Source: an uncultured Bacteroidota bacterium
GTDB lineage: Bacteria; Bacteroidota; Bacteroidia; Bacteroidales; VadinHA17
Length of the DNA: 42,910 nt
NCBI GenBank assembly: GCA_937864815.1
Contig: CALMJY010000274.1
Location: 1 to 42,910 of the forward strand
Reading direction: 5' to 3'
In this document: positions 8,233 to 38,818 of the stretch, piece by piece
How positions within the stretch are numbered: the first letter of the stretch is position 1
Layout: the number at the start of each line of letters is the position of its first letter
Notes under the pieces: generated by a model
The model's input: the letters and a program-made list of their open reading frames with translations, nothing else
Database searches by the model: none
What the model was told of the DNA's origin: nothing
Program-made: the position numbers and the translations under genes

Positions 8233-8251
8233 AAGGTTTTGGATATTTATC

Positions 8252-8285
8252 TATGTTGGGTACGGTCGCGACCGTACCCAACATA
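8252..8285. terminator. 34-bp perfect palindrome between tuf and tRNA-Trp
   Basis: The half site TATGTTGGGTACGGTCG is followed directly by its exact reverse complement, giving a very stable hairpin 19 bp after the tuf stop and 5 bp before the mature tRNA-Trp. No T-run follows on the plus strand (AAAAC), so it may act as an mRNA 3'-end or processing structure, or be a mobile palindromic repeat, and not a classical terminator. Confidence 0.55.
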
Positions 8286-8290
8286 AAAAC

Positions 8291-8363
8291 ACGGGTGTAG
8301 CTCAGTTGGTAGAGCACTGGTCTCCAAAACCAGGTGTCGGGAGTTCGAGTCTCTCCTCCCGTG
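8291..8363 (+). tRNA. tRNA-Trp (anticodon CCA)
   Basis: Acceptor ACGGGTG/CTCCCGT, D-stem GCTC/GAGC, anticodon stem CTGGT/ACCAG, loop CTCCAAA with CCA at 8324-8326, and T-loop TTCGAGT. One acceptor pair is a T-T mismatch (8296 against 8357). The discriminator is G; CCA is not encoded. It lies 18 bp before secE, a common bacterial arrangement. Confidence 0.95.
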
Positions 8364-8381
8364 CGAAAATTTATTAGTAAG

Positions 8382-8573
8382 ATGAATATAAAAGGATATT
8401 TTCAGGACTCATTCACAGAACTTTTACACAAAGTGACCTGGCCAACATGGAGCGAACTCCAGAATAGTGCCGTTCTCGTAATGGTTGCTTCCCTGATATT
8501 TGCATTGATAGTTGCCGGTATGGACCTGGCATTCAGCAATATCATGGAGTTTGTTTACAGTTTATTATACTAA
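8382..8573 (+). CDS. secE: Preprotein translocase subunit SecE
   Basis: The 63-residue protein matches minimal SecE: an amphipathic N-terminal segment with [17 protein letters not shown] (the KVTWPT motif) and one transmembrane helix ([20 protein letters not shown]). SecE clamps SecY in the SecYEG channel of the inner membrane. A longer open frame begins at 8334 but lies inside tRNA-Trp, so the ATG at 8382 is chosen. It is followed 16 bp later by nusG, the near-universal bacterial order. Confidence 0.96.
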
Positions 8574-31027: not shown

Positions 31028-34000
31028 TCAGAGTTTATGCGTTCTGGCATATTCCTTTACCTGGAAGACAAAAGCCTGCAGCCTTGTATCTAGCGATACA
31101 GTATCCTGTCCGTCGTAGGCAATATTTATAAACGGAATGTTATTGTGATCCTTTCTGAATGAGTCGCTTACTGAGGCTACAACAGTTCCCGGCATACAGG
31201 TGAAAGGCAGAATGGCTGCTATACCAGATACTCCTTTATTTACAAGAGATACAGCAGATCCCATTGCAATTGGAGGGTCTCCGTCATAATACTCACTTAC
31301 ATAAGGGTTGCAGGCACTAAGTATCTCATGAAGTGATAATTCCTTTTCCTCATCAGTGTATTTCATTAATCCCCGGAGAAGAGAATAGGAAATTACTTCC
31401 TGGCCAAGCTCCTGAATCTTTGATTTGATAACCCCTTTTTTGTCATTTTTCCAGAGACTGTCGCGTGTGAACCGGTGGGTTGAGTAAGTTATCCATTCAG
31501 AGAAAGGGCCAATAATGACCTCTGCTCCAAGATCTTCAATCCGGTTGGCAATATTACCGTTACACCCTGCATTATCTCTCATAAAGATCTCTCCGAGAAT
31601 GCCTACAACAGGTTTCCTCTGGCTTTTATCCACTTTAATTTTCATGAAATCATGAACAATTTCTGCAAGAATCCTGTGGAGTCCCCCGGCACCATTCTCA
31701 ATGCATACCTCAAGCTTTTTCAGCGAGTCTTTGTATAATTTGTCTGATTCTCCCTTATTGATCTCATATGGGCGTGTTTCCCTGTAAAGTTTTCTGAGGT
31801 AATCAAATACAACAAAACCTTTCCATGCATTGATCCGGAATTTTTTCCCATGTTCTCCTGCAATATCCTCATATGAAGTATCATTAGAAGGTGTTACCAG
31901 TTCTGCATCCTTGTAACCAAGCCTGTCGAACAGAATCCTGTGGAACTGGTTGTATTGCCCGAATCTGCAGGGACCATTATGGTCAGGCATAAAGAAACTT
32001 ATTTTTGAAGGATCAGCACCAGGCTCCATGAGTTTCTTCAGAAAACTTCCGGTGGTGCAGATCATGGGGAAACATTCTTTTGATGATGTATATTTTCTTC
32101 CAATTGCAAGATCCTCTTCGGTCTGTTTAGGCAGTACTTCTGATGGAATTCCGCAACTGCGGGCTGCAGCTGCAATCATGTAAGCCCCGTCGTGCATATA
32201 TGGAAAATAGAGTACTCTTTCTTTCTTTGGTGCTGACTGACCTGGTCTTGGTCTGAAGATTTCCGGTTCCTTTTTTTCATTCTGTTCTGCACCTTTCAGA
32301 CTGTCAAGGAAAGCCTCAATACGAGTTACCATACCGGCATCAGCTGAGTGTTCATCCACTTCGAGGTGCAGAAAAGGTTTTCCTTTTAGTTCCTCTGTGA
32401 TATAGTGCCAGATAAATGAATCTGGTCCGCATCTGAAATTGCTGAGATAGACAGCATGAAGATTATCAGATTTGGCTACAAGCTGTGCTGCTGCTATTAA
32501 TTTCTGCCCGTTTGGCCAGTACATATTCCGGTAATTCCTGAAGATTTCTGCCGGTTTTATATCAAGCATATCGATAGGTATCGGCATGACATTCTGGTTG
32601 ATGAGTTTTTCAACCAGACTCAGGCTAAGATGAGGATCAGCCGAGTTATAAGGTCTTCCCAGCAGAACAACAGGACGACAGTTATCAGGAATATTCTTCA
32701 TTACCTCTTTTCCATAGTCGGCAACAGTTTTTTCAAAACCTATCTGTACGCTGTCAGATTTATATACTGCTTTCCTGATTTTTTCCTTGCTGATTCCAAA
32801 CTTACTACTGAAATACCCTGTCATCTCTTTCATGAGAGCCCTTTCAAAAAACCTGAAATGCAGGGTGGGCATAAGAAGACGTGATTCGTCAATTTTGCCT
32901 TTCAGTGCAGACTTCACCATAAACGGATAAGTCTGGATCCATGGGCAATTACAGTTGAAAGTCTTATTTCCGGGTTGTTCTTTGCCGTTGACAATAAAGG
33001 GAATAAAGATGTAATCAGCATCCTTATTTATAAGGTCCATTACATGCCCGTGCATAAGTTCAACAGGAAGACATGTTTCTGCAGTGATTGTCTCAATAGA
33101 TTCCGTTACAATTGATTTATCAGATTCCCTTGAAACGATGACTGAAAAACCAAGCTCCTCGAAAAAGGTCCGCCAGAATGGAAACTGCTGATAATAAACC
33201 ATTAGGGCCCGTGGAATTCCAATTGTGGTTATCCTTTTATCTGTTGGAGGTGTGTAGTCCCCATTCAAAAATTCCAGTCTTTTCTTAAAAAGATCAGGAA
33301 TATTATTTGCAGTCTTTTTTCTGTCATCGGTTTCATATTTCTCACACCTGCCTCCATAAAAGAGAGCTTTTTCAACCCCGTCAATTTTAACCTTTCTTAT
33401 TTCGCAATGGTTGGTACATGACTGACAAACAAACCGTGTAATATTATAAGCTGCATTCCTGATGCCGAATCCCTTGAACCTGGTTTTCTGACCCTCTTTC
33501 ATGGATTTCTGTGCAAGGATTGCAGCACCAATAGCCCCCGTTACATCAAAATGAGGCGGAATCTGTATTTTCTTACCTACAACTTTCTCAAATGCAGCTA
33601 CTACTGCTTTATTGTTGGTGACACCACCCTGGAAAAAGATTTTATCGCCAATCTTCCTGTCCCCCACAACTTTCTGCAGGTAATTATATACTATAGAGTA
33701 GGCGAGACCTCCAACGAGGTTTTCATCCCTGGCCCCCTTCTGCATAAAGGAATTGAGATCCGATTCCATGAATACTGTACACCTGTCCCCAAGCTTTACA
33801 GGACAATCCGAATTCAGAGCCATACAGCCAAATTCTTCCACTATATTGATATTCAGCTTTTCAGCCTGTTCCTCGAGAAATGACCCTGTCCCTGCAGCAC
33901 AGACTTTATTCATTTCAAAGTCCACAACAACTCCATTTTCTATGCTGATATATTTTGAGTCCTGTCCGCCAATTTCGAATATCGTATCAACAGTCCGGTC

Positions 34001-35284
34001 ATAATCAATAGCAGCTATTGCCTGTGCCGTAATCTCATTCTGGATTGTATCGGCACCGATAAAGTCGCCTGTAAGATATCTGCCTGACCCGGTTGTTCCG
34101 GCGCCTATCACTTCCACATTCTCGCCTACTTCATCATAGATTTCAGTCAGTCCTCTCTGGATAGCCTCAAGTGGTTTTCCTGCCGTGGGAAGGTACCTTC
34201 GGGCTAAAACCCTGTGTTGTTCATCAATCAGAACAACATTGGTACTGAGTGAGCCAATGTCAAGACCAAGGAATACTTTTACCCTGCCATTGGAAGTATC
34301 TATCGGATGAACATATTTATCGTAAACAGCCTCTGATTCTTCCAGTTTAGGGAGACTTATAAAAGCAGAGGAATCATTAGCAAGATATTCTTCCAGTTTG
34401 CCAAGTCCTGCAAAATGATTCATCTCAAGTCCGTTTGACTGTGCAAACAATACCGCTCCGATAGCTCCCATTGATGCATGGTACTTCGGTATGATCAGGT
34501 CTTCACCCTCAAGTTTAAGAGTTTCCCTGAAAGCTCTTATCATTCCGATATTGGCAGCTACACCACCTGAGAAAACAACAGGTTTAATTATCTCCTTGCT
34601 TTTTGCAACATTGCTCCTGAAGTTTCTTGCAAGTGCAAAGCATAAACCTGCAACAATATCATGAAGAGGAGTTGCAATCTGCTGGTGATGTATCATGTCA
34701 CTCTTGGCAAATACGCTGCACCTGCCCGCTATCCTTGGCGGATTTACCGACAGAAGTGACATCTGGCCAAACTCATTTTCTATCCGGACACCTATTCTCT
34801 TAGCCTGCTGATCAAGAAAAGAGCCGGTGCCTGCCGCACATATACTGTTCATCTCAAAATCGACCAGACGTGAATGACCATTTGAAGGGTCTTTTTCAAG
34901 AAGAATGAGTTTAGAGTCCTCTCCACCGATTTCAATAACAGTTCTGGCATCAGGATAAAGTCTGCCGGTTGAAGTTGCCTGTGCAATAATCTCATTTATA
35001 AAGATTCCTCCAAGTAGCTCGGAACCGAGTTTACCTCCCGATCCTGTAAATGCAATTCCCCTGATTGACTGGGCTTTATATTTTTCTAAAAGAAATAATA
35101 GTCTGGTATGGAGGGTGTTAAACGGCTTTCCGTATATATAATCATAATGATTTTCCAGGATATTGTGATCGGTATCAAGTACAACACTGTTAAGAGAAAC
35201 TGAGCCAATATCAAATCCGAAAAGGAAATATTCCTGTTGTGATTGATTGGATAAGCCGCCAGTTTCCATAGTATTGAATTTCAC
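31028..35284 (-). CDS. Giant fused ASKHA activase / 2-hydroxyacyl-CoA dehydratase-like Fe-S protein
   Basis: The 1418-residue cytosolic protein has two BadF/HgdC-type ATPase domains. Domain 1 (about 20-285) has FGFDIGSVSLNS, EIGGEDSKL, Cys149 (NSICAAGTGS) and Cys189 (GRCSVF). Domain 2 (about 337-595) has LGLDIGSLSTNV, EIGGQDSKY, Cys462 (KVCAAGTGS) and Cys502 (DRCTVF). A four-Cys motif (620, 623, 627, 647) leads to a DUF2229 region starting TIGIPRALMVYYQQFPFWRT, then HgdB/HgdC-like segments with Cys738, 778, 780, 952, 1071, 1076, 1106, 1241, 1325 and 1363. Activases hydrolyse ATP to push low-potential electrons into dehydratases or double-cubane proteins. COG1924/3580/3581-type fusions are known from genomes, but the reaction is not established. 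It probably needs anoxia. No strong ribosome site precedes the ATG. Confidence 0.9.
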   Translation of the reverse strand: MKFNTMETGGLSNQSQQEYFLFGFDIGSVSLNSVVLDTDHNILENHYDYIYGKPFNTLHTRLLFLLEKYKAQSIRGIAFTGSGGKLGSELLGGIFINEIIAQATSTGRLYPDARTVIEIGGEDSKLILLEKDPSNGHSRLVDFEMNSICAAGTGSFLDQQAKRIGVRIENEFGQMSLLSVNPPRIAGRCSVFAKSDMIHHQQIATPLHDIVAGLCFALARNFRSNVAKSKEIIKPVVFSGGVAANIGMIRAFRETLKLEGEDLIIPKYHASMGAIGAVLFAQSNGLEMNHFAGLGKLEEYLANDSSAFISLPKLEESEAVYDKYVHPIDTSNGRVKVFLGLDIGSLSTNVVLIDEQHRVLARRYLPTAGKPLEAIQRGLTEIYDEVGENVEVIGAGTTGSGRYLTGDFIGADTIQNEITAQAIAAIDYDRTVDTIFEIGGQDSKYISIENGVVVDFEMNKVCAAGTGSFLEEQAEKLNINIVEEFGCMALNSDCPVKLGDRCTVFMESDLNSFMQKGARDENLVGGLAYSIVYNYLQKVVGDRKIGDKIFFQGGVTNNKAVVAAFEKVVGKKIQIPPHFDVTGAIGAAILAQKSMKEGQKTRFKGFGIRNAAYNITRFVCQSCTNHCEIRKVKIDGVEKALFYGGRCEKYETDDRKKTANNIPDLFKKRLEFLNGDYTPPTDKRITTIGIPRALMVYYQQFPFWRTFFEELGFSVIVSRESDKSIVTESIETITAETCLPVELMHGHVMDLINKDADYIFIPFIVNGKEQPGNKTFNCNCPWIQTYPFMVKSALKGKIDESRLLMPTLHFRFFERALMKEMTGYFSSKFGISKEKIRKAVYKSDSVQIGFEKTVADYGKEVMKNIPDNCRPVVLLGRPYNSADPHLSLSLVEKLINQNVMPIPIDMLDIKPAEIFRNYRNMYWPNGQKLIAAAQLVAKSDNLHAVYLSNFRCGPDSFIWHYITEELKGKPFLHLEVDEHSADAGMVTRIEAFLDSLKGAEQNEKKEPEIFRPRPGQSAPKKERVLYFPYMHDGAYMIAAAARSCGIPSEVLPKQTEEDLAIGRKYTSSKECFPMICTTGSFLKKLMEPGADPSKISFFMPDHNGPCRFGQYNQFHRILFDRLGYKDAELVTPSNDTSYEDIAGEHGKKFRINAWKGFVVFDYLRKLYRETRPYEINKGESDKLYKDSLKKLEVCIENGAGGLHRILAEIVHDFMKIKVDKSQRKPVVGILGEIFMRDNAGCNGNIANRIEDLGAEVIIGPFSEWITYSTHRFTRDSLWKNDKKGVIKSKIQELGQEVISYSLLRGLMKYTDEEKELSLHEILSACNPYVSEYYDGDPPIAMGSAVSLVNKGVSGIAAILPFTCMPGTVVASVSDSFRKDHNNIPFINIAYDGQDTVSLDTRLQAFVFQVKEYARTHKL

Positions 35285-35486: not shown

Positions 35487-35512
35487 AATTGAGCCCTAGA
35501 ACCGCCGCACTG

Positions 35513-35570
35513 TCGCACCGTCACACCGTCGCACCGTCGCACCGTCACACCGTCGCACCGTCACATCGTC
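35513..35570. repeat. 8-bp tandem repeat touching the ferredoxin stop codon
   Basis: Seven units follow one another, TCGCACCG or TCACACCG, the last degenerate (TCACATCG), with a further decayed copy (CCGCACTG) upstream. The array ends on the first base of the ferredoxin gene's stop codon (read on the minus strand), so it forms the start of that mRNA's 3' UTR. Confidence 0.8.
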
Positions 35571-36496
35571 TAAATCCATTCTTCCTCAAGAATACTACCG
35601 TTGATACCCACAAGGACCTTCTTGACAGGAACTTTTCTTGCAGAATTAGCAAGGGCTGCACGGACCATCTGTAAAAGTCCGCCACAGCAGGGAACCTCCA
35701 TTATCATTACAGTTATTGTATTAAGCTTTGCTGTTTCAACCATTGCTGTAAGTTTTTCCACATAGACTTCCATTCCATGATCGAGCTTCGGGCAGGCTAT
35801 TGCCAGTGACTTGCCCCTGAGCCAGGATGAGTGGAAATTGCCCAGTGAAAATGCCACGCAGTCAGCAGCCAGAAGAAGATCTGCTCCTCTGAAATACGGG
35901 GCATTTGGATTGACCAGATGCATCTGAACAGGCCATTGCCTTAGTTCTGAAGGCTGATCACCCGTTATTATATCATTGCCATTCTTATCAGCCTTATCAA
36001 TAACCAGTGTTCTTGAGCCGGGGCAACCTCCTCCTCCGTGACTATGGGCATGGTTATGCTGCGCTGCAACTGCCGCAGGTGCTGCAAAGGCTGCAGCCTG
36101 CTTATGTCCGTGATTATGGACTTCACTTATAACTTCATCAAGGTTGAATTTGAGTTCAGACCGGTGAACTTTGAGCCATCCGACACCCTCCTGCAGAAAT
36201 CCTGTTTCGCCATGATCCTTAAGATGTTTGAGATGGGCAATAATTGTGTTTTTACCGTTGTTTACCATTTGCTCCATCACACGGGTTTCACTGTATGGCT
36301 CAGCCTCTCTCTTCTCTATTGTTATTGCACCCTCAGGACAATGTCCGATGCATGCACCAAGTCCGTCGCACATAAGTTCACTTACAAGCCTTACTTTTCC
36401 GTCAATTACCTGCAATGCACCCTCATGGCAGTTTGGAACACACAGGCCGCAACCGTTGCAGAGTTCTTCATCTATCTTCAAAATATCACGTATCAT
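35570..36496 (-). CDS. Ferredoxin-like 4Fe-4S protein with His-rich linker
   Basis: The 308-residue protein starts with a two-cluster ferredoxin domain. Motif 1 is complete (Cys13, 16, 19, 23 in CNGCGLCVPNC). Motif 2 is CDGLGACIGHCPEGA, where Leu46 replaces the second cysteine (Cys43, 49, 53 remain). A His/Ala-rich linker follows (His127, 129, 131; 147, 149, 151, 153; then GGGGCPGS). The C-terminal domain has Cys213, Cys235 (IACPKLD) and a CC pair at 270-271 (EVPCCGGLLQM). Similar proteins occur near Crp-family HcpR regulators and hybrid-cluster genes under the name FrdX; I infer, but cannot prove, this identity. The His stretch could bind metal. It sits behind a 26-bp palindrome. Confidence 0.88.
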   Translation of the reverse strand: MIRDILKIDEELCNGCGLCVPNCHEGALQVIDGKVRLVSELMCDGLGACIGHCPEGAITIEKREAEPYSETRVMEQMVNNGKNTIIAHLKHLKDHGETGFLQEGVGWLKVHRSELKFNLDEVISEVHNHGHKQAAAFAAPAAVAAQHNHAHSHGGGGCPGSRTLVIDKADKNGNDIITGDQPSELRQWPVQMHLVNPNAPYFRGADLLLAADCVAFSLGNFHSSWLRGKSLAIACPKLDHGMEVYVEKLTAMVETAKLNTITVMIMEVPCCGGLLQMVRAALANSARKVPVKKVLVGINGSILEEEWI

Positions 36497-36522: not shown

Positions 36523-36572
36523 CAAATATGAAGATGTCTTAAGACAGAAATTGTAACATATGTTACAATTTC
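36523..36572 (-). promoter_or_regulatory. Ferredoxin promoter with 26-bp palindromic operator
   Basis: GAAATTGTAACAT followed directly by its reverse complement gives a 26-bp perfect palindrome at 36547-36572. Downstream on the minus strand CATATTTG (36523-36530) differs in one base from TAnnTTTG. The palindrome centre (36559.5) would be about 40 bp before the start of transcription, where class II Crp/Fnr activators bind, and it covers the -33 position, which lacks a consensus box. Confidence 0.7.
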
Positions 36573-38081: not shown

Positions 38082-38102
38082 TGATCATAATTTATTGAGT
38101 GC

Positions 38103-38119
38103 CAAATGTAATAATTTTG
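38103..38119. promoter_or_regulatory. Back-to-back divergent -7 boxes (M28 and Crp genes)
   Basis: TACATTTG on the minus strand (38103-38110) and TAATTTTG on the plus strand (38112-38119) both match TAnnTTTG and are one base apart. Neither has a TTTG -33 box. The two promoters must compete for polymerase, and together they form a CCAAA...TTTGG symmetry. Confidence 0.55.
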
Positions 38120-38146
38120 GAAACATATATATTATTACCTGTTGTT

Positions 38147-38818
38147 ATGAATTGTACCAAGTTAAATCAGGCTCCTTTATTCAGAGGATTAAAACCTGAA
38201 GCAATTGAGGATATTATAAATACAATACCTCACAAAGAAAGAAAGTTCAATGCAGGATCGTTAATAGCTCAGAGTGGAGATGCAGTCACATCTCTGATGA
38301 TTGTAAGTGTGGGTATGGCGAAGGGAGAAATGATCGACTTTGCCGGAAGAGTAATTAAAATTGAAGATATTCCCGCACCCGGGGCTTTGGCATCTGCTTT
38401 TATTTTCGGTAACCGTAACAGGTTTCCTGTTAATGTAATAGCAGTCTCTGATGTGGAACTTCTGATTATCGAAAAATCTGATTTTCTTTTCCTGATGATG
38501 AAGAATGACATAATCCTTGCAAATTTCCTGGATATGATTTCGAACAGATCCCAGTTTCTTTCAGAGAAGATCAAGTTTCTGAATTTCAAGACAATAAAAG
38601 GAAAGCTTGCCCAGTTCATCCTTCAGAAAACGGACCAGGGCACAAAATCGGTAAAACTTGAAATTACCCAGAATGAACTTGCTGATTATTTTGGAGTGGC
38701 CAGGCCGTCAGTGGCAAGGGCACTGGGTGATATGGAGGAGGATGGTTTAATAGAAGCAAACGGGAAAAATATCAAAATAATTGACAGGCAGGAGCTTGTA
38801 AAGCTGACAGCAGACTGA
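38147..38818 (+). CDS. Crp/Fnr-family transcriptional regulator (HcpR-like candidate)
   Basis: The 223-residue protein (from ATG 38147) has a cyclic-nucleotide-type sensor domain (about 10-115), a dimerisation helix and a Crp helix-turn-helix (173-203: LEITQNELADYFGVARPSVA, recognition helix near 185-198). It has only one cysteine (Cys3), so it is not an Fnr-type Fe-S sensor. The ARPSVAR recognition helix is like that of regulators linked to hybrid-cluster and nitrosative-stress genes, which is recalled and not verified. The frame is open back to GTG 38099, but that start overlaps the divergent promoters. It converges with the kinase gene, leaving 5 bp. Confidence 0.9.
   Translation: MNCTKLNQAPLFRGLKPEAIEDIINTIPHKERKFNAGSLIAQSGDAVTSLMIVSVGMAKGEMIDFAGRVIKIEDIPAPGALASAFIFGNRNRFPVNVIAVSDVELLIIEKSDFLFLMMKNDIILANFLDMISNRSQFLSEKIKFLNFKTIKGKLAQFILQKTDQGTKSVKLEITQNELADYFGVARPSVARALGDMEEDGLIEANGKNIKIIDRQELVKLTAD

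Follow-up and report, generated by a model that had tools for sequence, protein, structure and literature searches.

A single protein of 1418 residues, encoded in the window (the whole 42,910-nucleotide stretch of DNA that we analyzed), appears to be a complete 2:1:1 activase-dehydratase complex. As judged from its sequence and structure models, it combines two activase domains, a four-cysteine domain, and two homologous halves of the BCR/HAD type. Elsewhere, ATP-powered iron-sulfur enzymes of this type are made of three or four separate proteins. BCR/HAD enzymes use ATP to make some of biology's lowest-potential electrons. Our best explanation is that the fusion is a self-contained, ATP-driven Fe-S radical reductase of the BCR/HAD type with an HcpR2-type role in nitrosative stress. 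We are quite confident of the architecture and autonomy of the fusion, we give the whole statement an even chance, and we suggest a substrate related to nitrogen oxides only tentatively.

Domain make-up of the fusion

The fusion and its parts are:

31028..35284, minus strand: single-chain activase-dehydratase fusion (1418 amino acids; GTG start, or ATG at codon 6)
34430..35227, minus strand: activase domain 1 (residues 20-285), with intact ATP motifs, C149, and C189
33494..34276, minus strand: activase domain 2 (residues 337-597), with intact ATP motifs, C462, and C502
33305..33472, minus strand: four-Cys domain (residues 605-660) with C620, C623, C627, and C647; proposed electron-entry [4Fe-4S] site
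32270..33235, minus strand: DUF2229 half (residues 684-1005) with C738, C780, and C952; proposed beta-like relay subunit
31031..32215, minus strand: half that we take to be COG3581-like (residues 1024-1418), with C1071, C1106, and C1363; proposed alpha-like catalytic subunit

The open reading frame is real and not due to chance, and it is conserved across many phyla. On the minus strand, 1418 codons are open from the GTG start (31028-35284), and the opposite strand has stops throughout in the frame that we checked. The ATG at codon 6 is equally possible as the start, because alignments of full-length homologs begin at residues 3-22 of the query.

In Pfam, the fusion matches BcrAD_BadFG over two stretches (E = 1.2e-70) and DUF2229 (PF09989; residues 687-907, E = 8.7e-62, 209 bits vs. 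a gathering score of 29.4). TIGR00241 also matches the fusion (297.4 bits; cutoff 125.4). The four-Cys domain has no Pfam match at E up to 1. HGD-D matches residues 920-996 at 26.0 bits, which is below Pfam's curated cutoff of 28.4, so this is a divergent branch that lies outside the Pfam family as curated. The DUF2229 and COG3581-like halves are homologous to each other, and their three cysteines align (285 columns, hhalign E = 6e-11). By profile, the DUF2229 half is also related to three DCCP/YjiM-type proteins (91%, E = 9e-7).

All 14 cysteines are invariant in the 69 aligned full-length rows (64/64 from the main clade and 5/5 paralogs). The activase signature (the cysteine of CAAGTG and a second cysteine, which in dimeric activases bridge one [4Fe-4S]) is invariant in both activase domains, and both ATP sites are conserved in the main clade. 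A purely regulatory or sensory protein, with no redox catalysis, would fit with the absence of a known reaction and of a conserved operon. But all 14 Fe-S-type cysteines are conserved over many phyla, as are the two nucleotide sites, and Pfam shows no DNA-binding or signaling domain in the fusion, so we consider this very improbable.

Two AlphaFold2 models had high confidence (pLDDT 88.2 with pTM 0.86, and pLDDT 88.5 with pTM 0.80), with lower confidence in the four-Cys domain. Activase domain 2 matches 4ehu_B over 257 residues (VIA Z = 30.6, rmsd 1.9) and is 29-30% identical to the activases of 2-hydroxyacyl-CoA dehydratases (4eht/4ehu and 1hux). For residues 606-1418, all five Foldseek matches at E ≤ 0.001 are to DCCP or BzdNO. 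Next come MbdON and HAD (E = 0.005-0.008, probability 0.99-1.00); the rows around them include unrelated sugar isomerases with probabilities of 0.6 or less. VIA gave Z = 11.5-14.6 for subunits of HAD, BzdNO, DCCP, and MbdON, and 8.0 for the next row. The best VIA match of the DUF2229 half was 3o3n_B (Z = 14.6 over 270 residues, rmsd 4.0), tied with 3o3m_B and 8s02_B. The predicted catalytic pair has the HGD-D/HAD fold, the first half by its model and the last half by homology to the first.

An earlier note on this DNA described one activase and an "HgdB/HgdC-like" part in a single chain. Pfam, the models, and the fold matches bear out the single chain, and checking residues 680-1418 for a BCR/HAD fold, whose absence would have refuted the note, gave no refutation. 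However, there are two activase domains, not one, and the cysteine-rich part is actually two homologous halves that resemble dehydratase subunits. The label was off because HgdC, as a gene name, is the activase. The note overlooked the second activase domain, the four-Cys domain, and the HcpR-type locus described below. Given the second activase domain, the chain would be a complete complex. The note's view that activase and dehydratase normally touch only transiently is partly right: BCR- and MBR-type class I reductases are described as permanent heterotetramers (PMC11971306).

The note's comparison with double-cubane systems fails at the ligands, as there are three conserved cysteines in each half vs. 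six for the [8Fe-9S] double cubane described for BzdN. (In 2-hydroxyacyl-CoA dehydratase, three cysteines per catalytic subunit are described; PMC11574389.) We considered whether the fusion could be a one-chain, double-cubane-type reductase of small molecules. DCCP is described as reducing acetylene, hydrazine, and azide (PMC11971306), and its structures (7yyl, 7yzm, and 6eno) rank with the best matches by fold. Besides the cysteine count, the site that aligns with the GCP cysteine of a YjiM-like protein is arginine (Arg877) in 60/64 rows and lysine in 4/64, and the fusion scored just 13.7 bits against the NCBIfam model for double-cubane cluster proteins (NF040772; cutoff 350). We give a double-cubane-type reductase little probability.

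Relatives, split forms, and partners

The fusion belongs to the DUF2229 / COG3580 / COG3581 family (the COG labels are our assignment), which is known but, as far as we found, uncharacterized. In line with the earlier note, we found no reaction in the literature for the DUF2229 family.

Within the GTDB family, 45 of 59 genomes have a match to the fusion, and 37 of 59 have a match with at least 55% identity; two of the 59 genomes (G025 and G033) were counted from short pieces only, and the fusion is in pieces in G033. In a phylum-wide sample of 198 genomes, the gene is rare: 15 contain a match of any kind, and five contain a long one. These five include the window's own genome, and the other four are 28-34% identical. 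Relatives are spread over many phyla, as judged from the best 80 of 579 candidate stretches that encode a relative in other genomes. PF09989 is also found in Lactococcus, Thermotoga, Thermus, and Deinobacterium.

Some relatives are split. Monoglobus has a natural operon of three genes, in which one activase carries the same four-Cys motif at its C-terminus, and Fusobacterium has a two-gene form. In a tree of activase domains, domain 2 forms one clade (support 100/100) and the split Monoglobus activase is its sister (100/99), which fits with a tandem duplication. In a relative from Paraclostridium, the four-Cys domain is missing, as are all three cysteines of the last half.

The window's genome has no BcrAD/BadFG match besides the fusion and just one DUF2229 protein. 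It also has no HGD-D match, although this search did not report the fusion's own sub-threshold tail and would miss divergent forms; HGD-D is present in 1/59 genomes of the family. Since these searches of the genome turned up neither another activase nor an HGD-D dehydratase, the fusion probably acts without other subunits.

Could this be a 2-hydroxyacyl-CoA dehydratase or acyl-CoA reductase of the ordinary kind that just happens to have its subunits fused? Homologs are annotated as "acyl-CoA dehydratase activase" or "2-hydroxyacyl-CoA dehydratase," and the activase and HAD folds are present. Against this, the relationship is distant (HGD-D is below the cutoff), the genome lacks an HGD-D match, and among the neighborhoods listed, which were mostly read by eye, we recognized no CoA ligase, CoA transferase, enoyl-CoA, or 2-hydroxyacid module. 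Nor did we recognize a CoA-acid gene adjoining the fusion within the window, in agreement with the earlier note. We consider an ordinary CoA enzyme improbable.

The HcpR-type locus

The fusion gene is near the apparent switch of a nitric-oxide defense, which is a first clue to the family's role. In two related genera of Bacteroidales (g1 and g10), the fusion lies in an HcpR2-type locus with a Crp/Fnr regulator, a palindrome (TGTAACnnnnGTTACA), and a ferredoxin. In the window, these are:

35570..36496, minus strand: ferredoxin-domain protein (308 amino acids) with Fer4 matches, in an FrdX-like position; proposed electron donor
36552..36567, no strand: perfect palindrome TGTAACATATGTTACA, a candidate HcpR2-type operator, centered 63 nt before the ferredoxin start
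38099..38818, plus strand: HcpR2-like regulator of the Crp/Fnr family, with the recognition helix ARPSVAR

The recognition helix contains RP in the window's regulator and in those of L016/L096 (one genome), L084, and L157. As placed by eye against E. coli CRP, this proline may be at position 181 of CRP. The published HcpR2 consensus is given as GTAACnnnnGTTAC, with Pro-181 as a signature (PMC1274295). The window's candidate operator for this consensus (36552-36567) stands before the ferredoxin gene; the chance expectation in the window is 0.08 sites at up to one mismatch. The palindrome is conserved at relatives, where orthologs of the regulator are divergent from the ferredoxin gene, and it is also found before three hcp genes elsewhere. 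At two loci (L003 and L068), the palindrome is absent from the 150 nt that precede the ferredoxin gene, and none of 74 regions directly upstream of the fusion gene contains GTAACnnnnGTTAC within one mismatch. Genome-wide, there are 19 copies of the palindrome vs. 3 of a reversed control. Of 15 sites that we examined, seven are accompanied by an ORF start at -60 to 350 nt, and only the window's is less than 200 nt upstream of one.

The ferredoxin is near the fusion in 16/59 genomes of the family, from two genera. hcp adjoins the fusion in 11/59, all from g10, and lies between the ferredoxin and the fusion in eight of these 11. Co-occurrence with the fusion is weak (p = 0.058 for ferredoxin and p = 0.087 for hcp), and the fusion is missing from 8 of the 32 genomes that have the ferredoxin. 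Among the best 80 of 579 cross-phylum loci, many of which have short flanks, hcp was found in just one (L096), which is apparently the g10 genome G052 again. Overall, we lean slightly towards the ferredoxin and the fusion being a unit under HcpR-type regulation in this clade. A locus of this type is a hint that the fusion serves in nitrosative stress and not in the fermentation of CoA acids.

The earlier note proposed searching the neighborhoods of homologs for a shared substrate pathway; we found no conserved neighborhood outside the two genera. Another explanation is a reductive re-activator, in which the HAD-like halves only pass very low-potential electrons to a partner metalloprotein, as in RACo or the MCR activation complex. 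The partner could be Hcp, an Fe-S enzyme damaged by NO, or a dehydratase-type Fe-S enzyme. MCR activation is described as ATP-driven, through nitrogenase-like clusters (PMC12176620). A re-activator would also fit with the adjoining hcp genes in g10, with the location of the fusion gene between genes for the large and small subunits of an aconitase-family protein (leuC- and leuD-like by eye; L058 and L062) or after a large-subunit gene (L061), and with the RACo-like gene (by eye) that follows within 10 nt in L114. But there is no constant partner (among 55 adjacent same-strand genes, no Pfam family has more than three members), the window's genome keeps the fusion with no hcp match, and the three-Cys sites are fully conserved in both halves, as in catalytic clusters. 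We view a re-activator as unlikely, though worth considering.

Proposed mechanism and known systems

Returning to a self-contained reductase, we propose that the two activase domains would form an intramolecular dimer that holds one [4Fe-4S] cluster between them. A ferredoxin, probably 35573-36496, would reduce the four-Cys cluster, or else the cluster between the activase domains directly. ATP hydrolysis would drive an electron to the cluster of the DUF2229 half (a beta-like relay) and then to the three-Cys cluster of the alpha-like C-terminal half, whose open iron site may bind the substrate. We infer that the chain would act as an electron pump, as the earlier note called it. In these Bacteroidales, the fusion and the ferredoxin (and Hcp, where present) would serve an HcpR2-type response to nitrosative stress, and would act on a nitrogen oxide or on something that NO has damaged, not on an amino acid-derived CoA thioester. 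We consider the most specific form of this rather unlikely: an ATP-driven, nitrogenase-like machine in one polypeptide, with a built-in ferredoxin entry, that would reduce either a nitrogen oxide or some adduct derived from NO. If true, it would add an ATP-dependent branch to the nitrosative-stress defense of anaerobes and would give the DUF2229 family its first reaction.

Multi-protein BCR/HAD systems are awkward for purification, cluster counting, and single-turnover work. Having the whole machine in one gene, at a fixed 2:1:1 ratio, should make all of these easier. With the HcpR-type locus, a gene that lacked context also becomes open to a direct test: its target could be nitrogen oxides, or it could be damage done by NO.

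The closest known systems share parts of this design. MbdONPQ, an MBR-type class I benzoyl-CoA reductase (9gai, 9gba), also has an activase pair and a catalytic pair, and both folds match the fusion, but it comprises four polypeptides, acts on aryl-CoA, and is 10-11% identical to the DUF2229 half over aligned residues. 2-hydroxyacyl-CoA dehydratase (3o3m-3o3o; 4eht/4ehu; 1hux) shares the activase fold, the fold of the DUF2229 half, and the three cysteines per catalytic subunit. Unlike the fusion, it has separate subunits and a homodimeric activase, and no CoA pathway was recognized for the fusion. DCCP:DCCP-R (7yyl, 7yzm, 6eno) and YjiM/YjiL-type systems share the fold, an activase, and the profile relationship to the DUF2229 half, but DCCP has a double cubane where the fusion has three conserved cysteines per half. 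The HcpR2-FrdX-Hcp regulon of anaerobes has, as here, a Crp/Fnr regulator, the GTAACnnnnGTTAC operator, and a ferredoxin, with hcp present in the sister genus; the passages on this regulon describe most HcpR2 regulons in Bacteroides as containing hcp only and do not mention a large ATP-driven BCR/HAD enzyme (PMC1274295, PMC545781). Finally, among the DUF2229/COG3580/COG3581 relatives, Monoglobus and Fusobacterium have split forms, and the window's protein is the fully fused form.

Conserved parts of the fusion protein

The fusion protein is the only match to itself in its own genome (4.66 Mb, 348 contigs, 97% complete).

31028-35284, minus strand: fusion ORF, 1418 amino acids

Pfam reports two BcrAD_BadFG stretches and DUF2229 (residues 687-907); an HGD-D tail at 920-996 stays below the threshold. 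With phmmer against the PDB, the first domain matches the activases 4eht_A (21-285) and 9gai_C (20-273), and the second matches the activases 9gai_D, 1hux_A, and 7yyl_E from residue 338.

We aligned 69 full-length ORFs: the window's own, 58 from 80 cross-phylum loci, and 10 relatives from family-level and phylum-level genome searches. The 80 loci are the best 80 of 579 candidates; 22 of them are outside the alignment because they were truncated or split or did not pass the filter. Titles among the best 80 include Bacteroidales, the anammox genera Brocadia and Scalindua, Zixibacteria, Deltaproteobacteria, Planctomycetota, Nitrospirae, Armatimonadetes, Chloroflexi, and others. Five of the aligned rows are paralogs (26-30% identity). 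Two sequences (L054 and G055) have apparent frameshifts inside a domain, which we left uncorrected. Viral contigs gave 8 pattern matches and no relative.

Fourteen cysteines are invariant, both in the main rows (64/64) and in the paralogs (5/5). Column 623 is alignment-dependent in the paralog L035, because an earlier alignment had a proline there.

Invariant cysteines of the fusion protein in the 69-row alignment
Activase 1: 149, 189
Activase 2: 462, 502
Four-Cys domain: 620, 623, 627, 647
DUF2229 half: 738, 780, 952
Last half: 1071, 1106, 1363

Within the main clade, both nucleotide sites are conserved; the phosphate-1 aspartate of activase 1 is lost in four of the five paralogs. The cysteine signature, together with the pseudo-dimer, suggests that a single cluster is common to both activase domains.

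Structures were predicted from alignments of 58 and 53 rows. The model of residues 14-680 (pLDDT 88.5, pTM 0.80) has lower confidence in the four-Cys region, and VIA places activase 2 on 4ehu_B with Z 30.6 and rmsd 1.9 over 257/259 residues. For residues 606-1418 (pLDDT 88.2, pTM 0.86), all five Foldseek matches at E ≤ 0.001 are double-cubane cluster proteins (DCCP) or BzdNO. MbdON and 2-hydroxyacyl-CoA dehydratases (HAD) come next (E 0.005-0.008, probability 0.99-1.00), amid sugar isomerases of probability 0.6 or below. VIA superposes the DUF2229 half on the HAD chain 3o3n_B (Z 14.6, 270 residues, rmsd 4.0); more chains of HAD, BzdNO, DCCP, and MbdON have Z of 11.5-14.3, and the row after those has Z 8.0. 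When sequence profiles of the C-terminal parts were compared with the PDB, DCCP matched only weakly (best E 0.64, 0.11, and 0.13), and the searches with 0.11 and 0.13 also had unrelated chains at similar E. For the C-terminal parts, the fold search on the predicted model was decisive.

The VIA rows for the last half are generic Rossmann-like matches, and its hhalign comparison with three YjiM-like proteins is weak (32%). An hhalign comparison (97.1%, E 6e-11, 285 columns) shows that the DUF2229 half and the last half are homologs and superposes all three of their cysteines; on this comparison we assign the last half to the family of the DUF2229 half. Because the domains run activase, activase, four-Cys domain, subunit, subunit, the composition is that of one whole activase2-alpha-beta complex. 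The earlier note had described an activase and a dehydratase-like part in one chain; this combination is real and conserved, and the anatomy is more complete than the note's list of parts.

The fusion's own genome has one DUF2229 and no BcrAD_BadFG match outside the fusion (two matches, both within it). It also had no match in an HGD-D search that is insensitive to divergent forms, as the fusion's own tail went unreported. HGD-D was found in just 1 of the 59 genomes of the GTDB family. Within the sensitivity of that search, this organism has no classical partner for the fusion.

Split forms and origin

Monoglobus pectinilyticus has the parts as three genes, which encode a DUF2229-like protein (329 amino acids), a dehydratase-like protein (407 amino acids), and one activase (330 amino acids) whose C-terminus has the same four-Cys motif as the fusion. 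At this locus (L128), a TSCPD-domain gene (annotated as TIGR03905 family) lies at 8235-8480, 22 nt after the activase. Fusobacterium animalis has the same parts as two genes, and locus L122 (1026 + 451 amino acids) is broken at the same domain boundary as in Fusobacterium.

In a tree of activase domains (63 rows), domain 2 forms one clade (100/100), which has the single activase of Monoglobus as sister (100/99) and excludes the domain-1 copies. The fast-evolving domain-1 rows of the five paralogs group with classical single activases with modest support (82/78), perhaps because of long-branch attraction. To us, the tree suggests that an activase with a tail was duplicated once in tandem, and that fusion, rather than fission, probably came next.

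Other architectures occur as well. Three genomes of the same GTDB family (G012:C59, G024:C358, and G038:C343) encode a third, longer DUF2229 architecture, with 1643-amino-acid frames that are ~24-25% identical to the window protein. The Paraclostridium fusion (L130, 4992-8840; 1282 amino acids) has neither the four-Cys domain nor any of the three cysteines of the last half, and keeps the cysteines of the activases and the DUF2229 half. Of 14 control genomes, 4 have PF09989 (DUF2229). Two of them, Thermus composti and Deinobacterium chartae, belong to aerobic genera, which is surprising because the activase system is oxygen-sensitive. The others are Lactococcus lactis and Thermotoga maritima, and T. 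maritima also has a Prismane match.

Genomic context

We clustered the neighbors among ORFs called in the 80 loci and the window, and scanned 55 of 58 adjacent same-strand genes with Pfam (omitting two L122 neighbors, one of which is a piece of the fusion, and L123:8036-9751). No family had more than three members, so we rejected an operon conserved across phyla. Among the neighbors listed, RACo-, metG-, and radical-SAM-like genes (several named by eye) repeat in narrow groups only. In four loci (L104, L080, L107, and L108; three titled Nitrospirae or Nitrospiraceae), the fusion gene precedes a UroD/MetE-like gene and a metG-type gene, both named by eye. An aconitase-family, leuC-like gene precedes the fusion gene in L058, L061, and L062 (including Brocadia and Scalindua), and in L058 and L062 a leuD-like gene follows it, so that an isopropylmalate-dehydratase-like pair is split by the fusion. 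Any general role of the fusion must account for these loci as well as for those with unrelated neighbors.

Two genes near the fusion in the window are also found in its relatives:

35573-36496, same strand as the fusion: 308-amino-acid ferredoxin-domain protein, just upstream of the fusion
38099: Crp/Fnr-family gene, with a peptidase gene between it and the ferredoxin gene

The ~285 nt between the ferredoxin and fusion genes contain short repeats, including an imperfect tandem repeat of GTGCGACG/GTGTGACG units at ~35500-35570. A ferredoxin ortholog lies near the fusion on the same contig in 16 of the 59 genomes: 7 from g1 and 9 from g10 (hand count), two related Bacteroidales genera. In g10, a hybrid-cluster protein gene (hcp; NF003658 and TIGR01703 in the two copies scanned) adjoins the fusion in 11 genomes, on the upstream side in ten, of which eight have the ferredoxin on the far side of hcp; the order in G052 is fusion-ferredoxin-hcp. 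These 11 include genomes with the fusion (G033) or hcp (G058) in pieces. In the 9 remaining genomes that have hcp, it lies elsewhere or there is no fusion, and the window genome has no hcp match. Across the 59 genomes, co-occurrence with the fusion is not significant for the ferredoxin (odds ratio 3.2, p 0.058) or hcp (odds ratio 3.4, p 0.087), by hand-made 2x2 tables that ignore kinship.

Eight relatives (L002, L005, L006, L084, L096, and L159-L161) have a Crp/Fnr-family gene divergent from the ferredoxin gene. An RP motif occurs in the window regulator and in those of three relatives, probably at the place of position 181 (by eye, against CRP). For HcpR2, Rodionov and co-workers give a proline at position 181 and the consensus GTAACnnnnGTTAC, and they connect HcpR with hcp and with FrdX, a ferredoxin (PMC1274295 and PMC545781). 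Similar to that consensus, the perfect palindrome TGTAACATATGTTACA is centered 63 nt before the ferredoxin start (0.08 expected in the window at ≤1 mismatch). With up to one mismatch, it is kept before the ferredoxin in 9 of the 11 genomes looked at, and before all three fetched hcp genes that lie elsewhere (G042, G034, and G040). Loci L003 and L068 have no palindrome in the 150 nt upstream of the ferredoxin.

The palindrome is unspecific in the window genome, which contains 19 sites. Of the 15 sites that we read, 7 have an ORF that starts between -60 and 350 nt away (the ferredoxin at 63, others at 209, 247, 284, 340, and 347, and one overlapping), so this genome alone does not reveal a coherent regulon. 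Directly upstream of the fusion, FNR, Rex, CRP, and GTAAC boxes were not enriched relative to shuffles (74 upstream regions), and generic scans around the fusion gene were at chance level for promoters (17 versus 16.8 expected) and terminators (5 versus 5.8 expected). The HcpR-type link, which is confined to two related genera, is a lead, and the most useful new clue. Paraclostridium has a looser echo of this context: a Crp/Fnr gene is divergent from the shortened fusion, with the palindrome TGTCTCATATGAGACA between them, and hemerythrin, ferredoxin, and hcp lie 3-4 kb on.

Comparison with known systems

We found no study of a reaction of the fusion family in the open-access papers searched (subscription papers are mostly outside that scope). 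Expression studies mention two genes with similar names: SMU_0438c, which is 2.2-fold up under manganese depletion (PMC6952196), and LACOL_0137, which has a Rex-like motif (PMC4972977).

According to PMC11971306, six cysteines of BzdN bind an [8Fe-9S] cluster and three cysteines of BzdO bind a [4Fe-4S] cluster. Each C-terminal half of the fusion has three conserved cysteines, like BzdO and the HAD subunits of PMC11574389, and unlike BzdN with its six, so the double-cubane type is unlikely. The spacing in the last half (1071-1106-1363; 35 and 257) is similar to that in BzdO (95-128-380; 33 and 252), and hence the last half is probably the catalytic one. If the bridging site, the four-Cys domain, and both three-Cys sites each hold a [4Fe-4S] cluster, a chain would contain about 16 Fe. 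By analogy with the homologous systems (PMC11971306 and PMC11574389), we infer that ferredoxin would reduce the four-Cys cluster or the activase cluster, that ATP-driven transfer would carry electrons to the cluster of the DUF2229 half, and that they would then reach the last half, whose three-Cys cluster would have an open iron site.

The earlier note had also proposed that the fusion makes a transient activase-dehydratase contact permanent. In the benzoyl-CoA reductase (BCR) and MBR types, the heterotetramer is permanent to begin with (PMC11971306), so the proposal needs that limit. What is special in the fusion is that every part, including the extra four-Cys domain, is in one chain.
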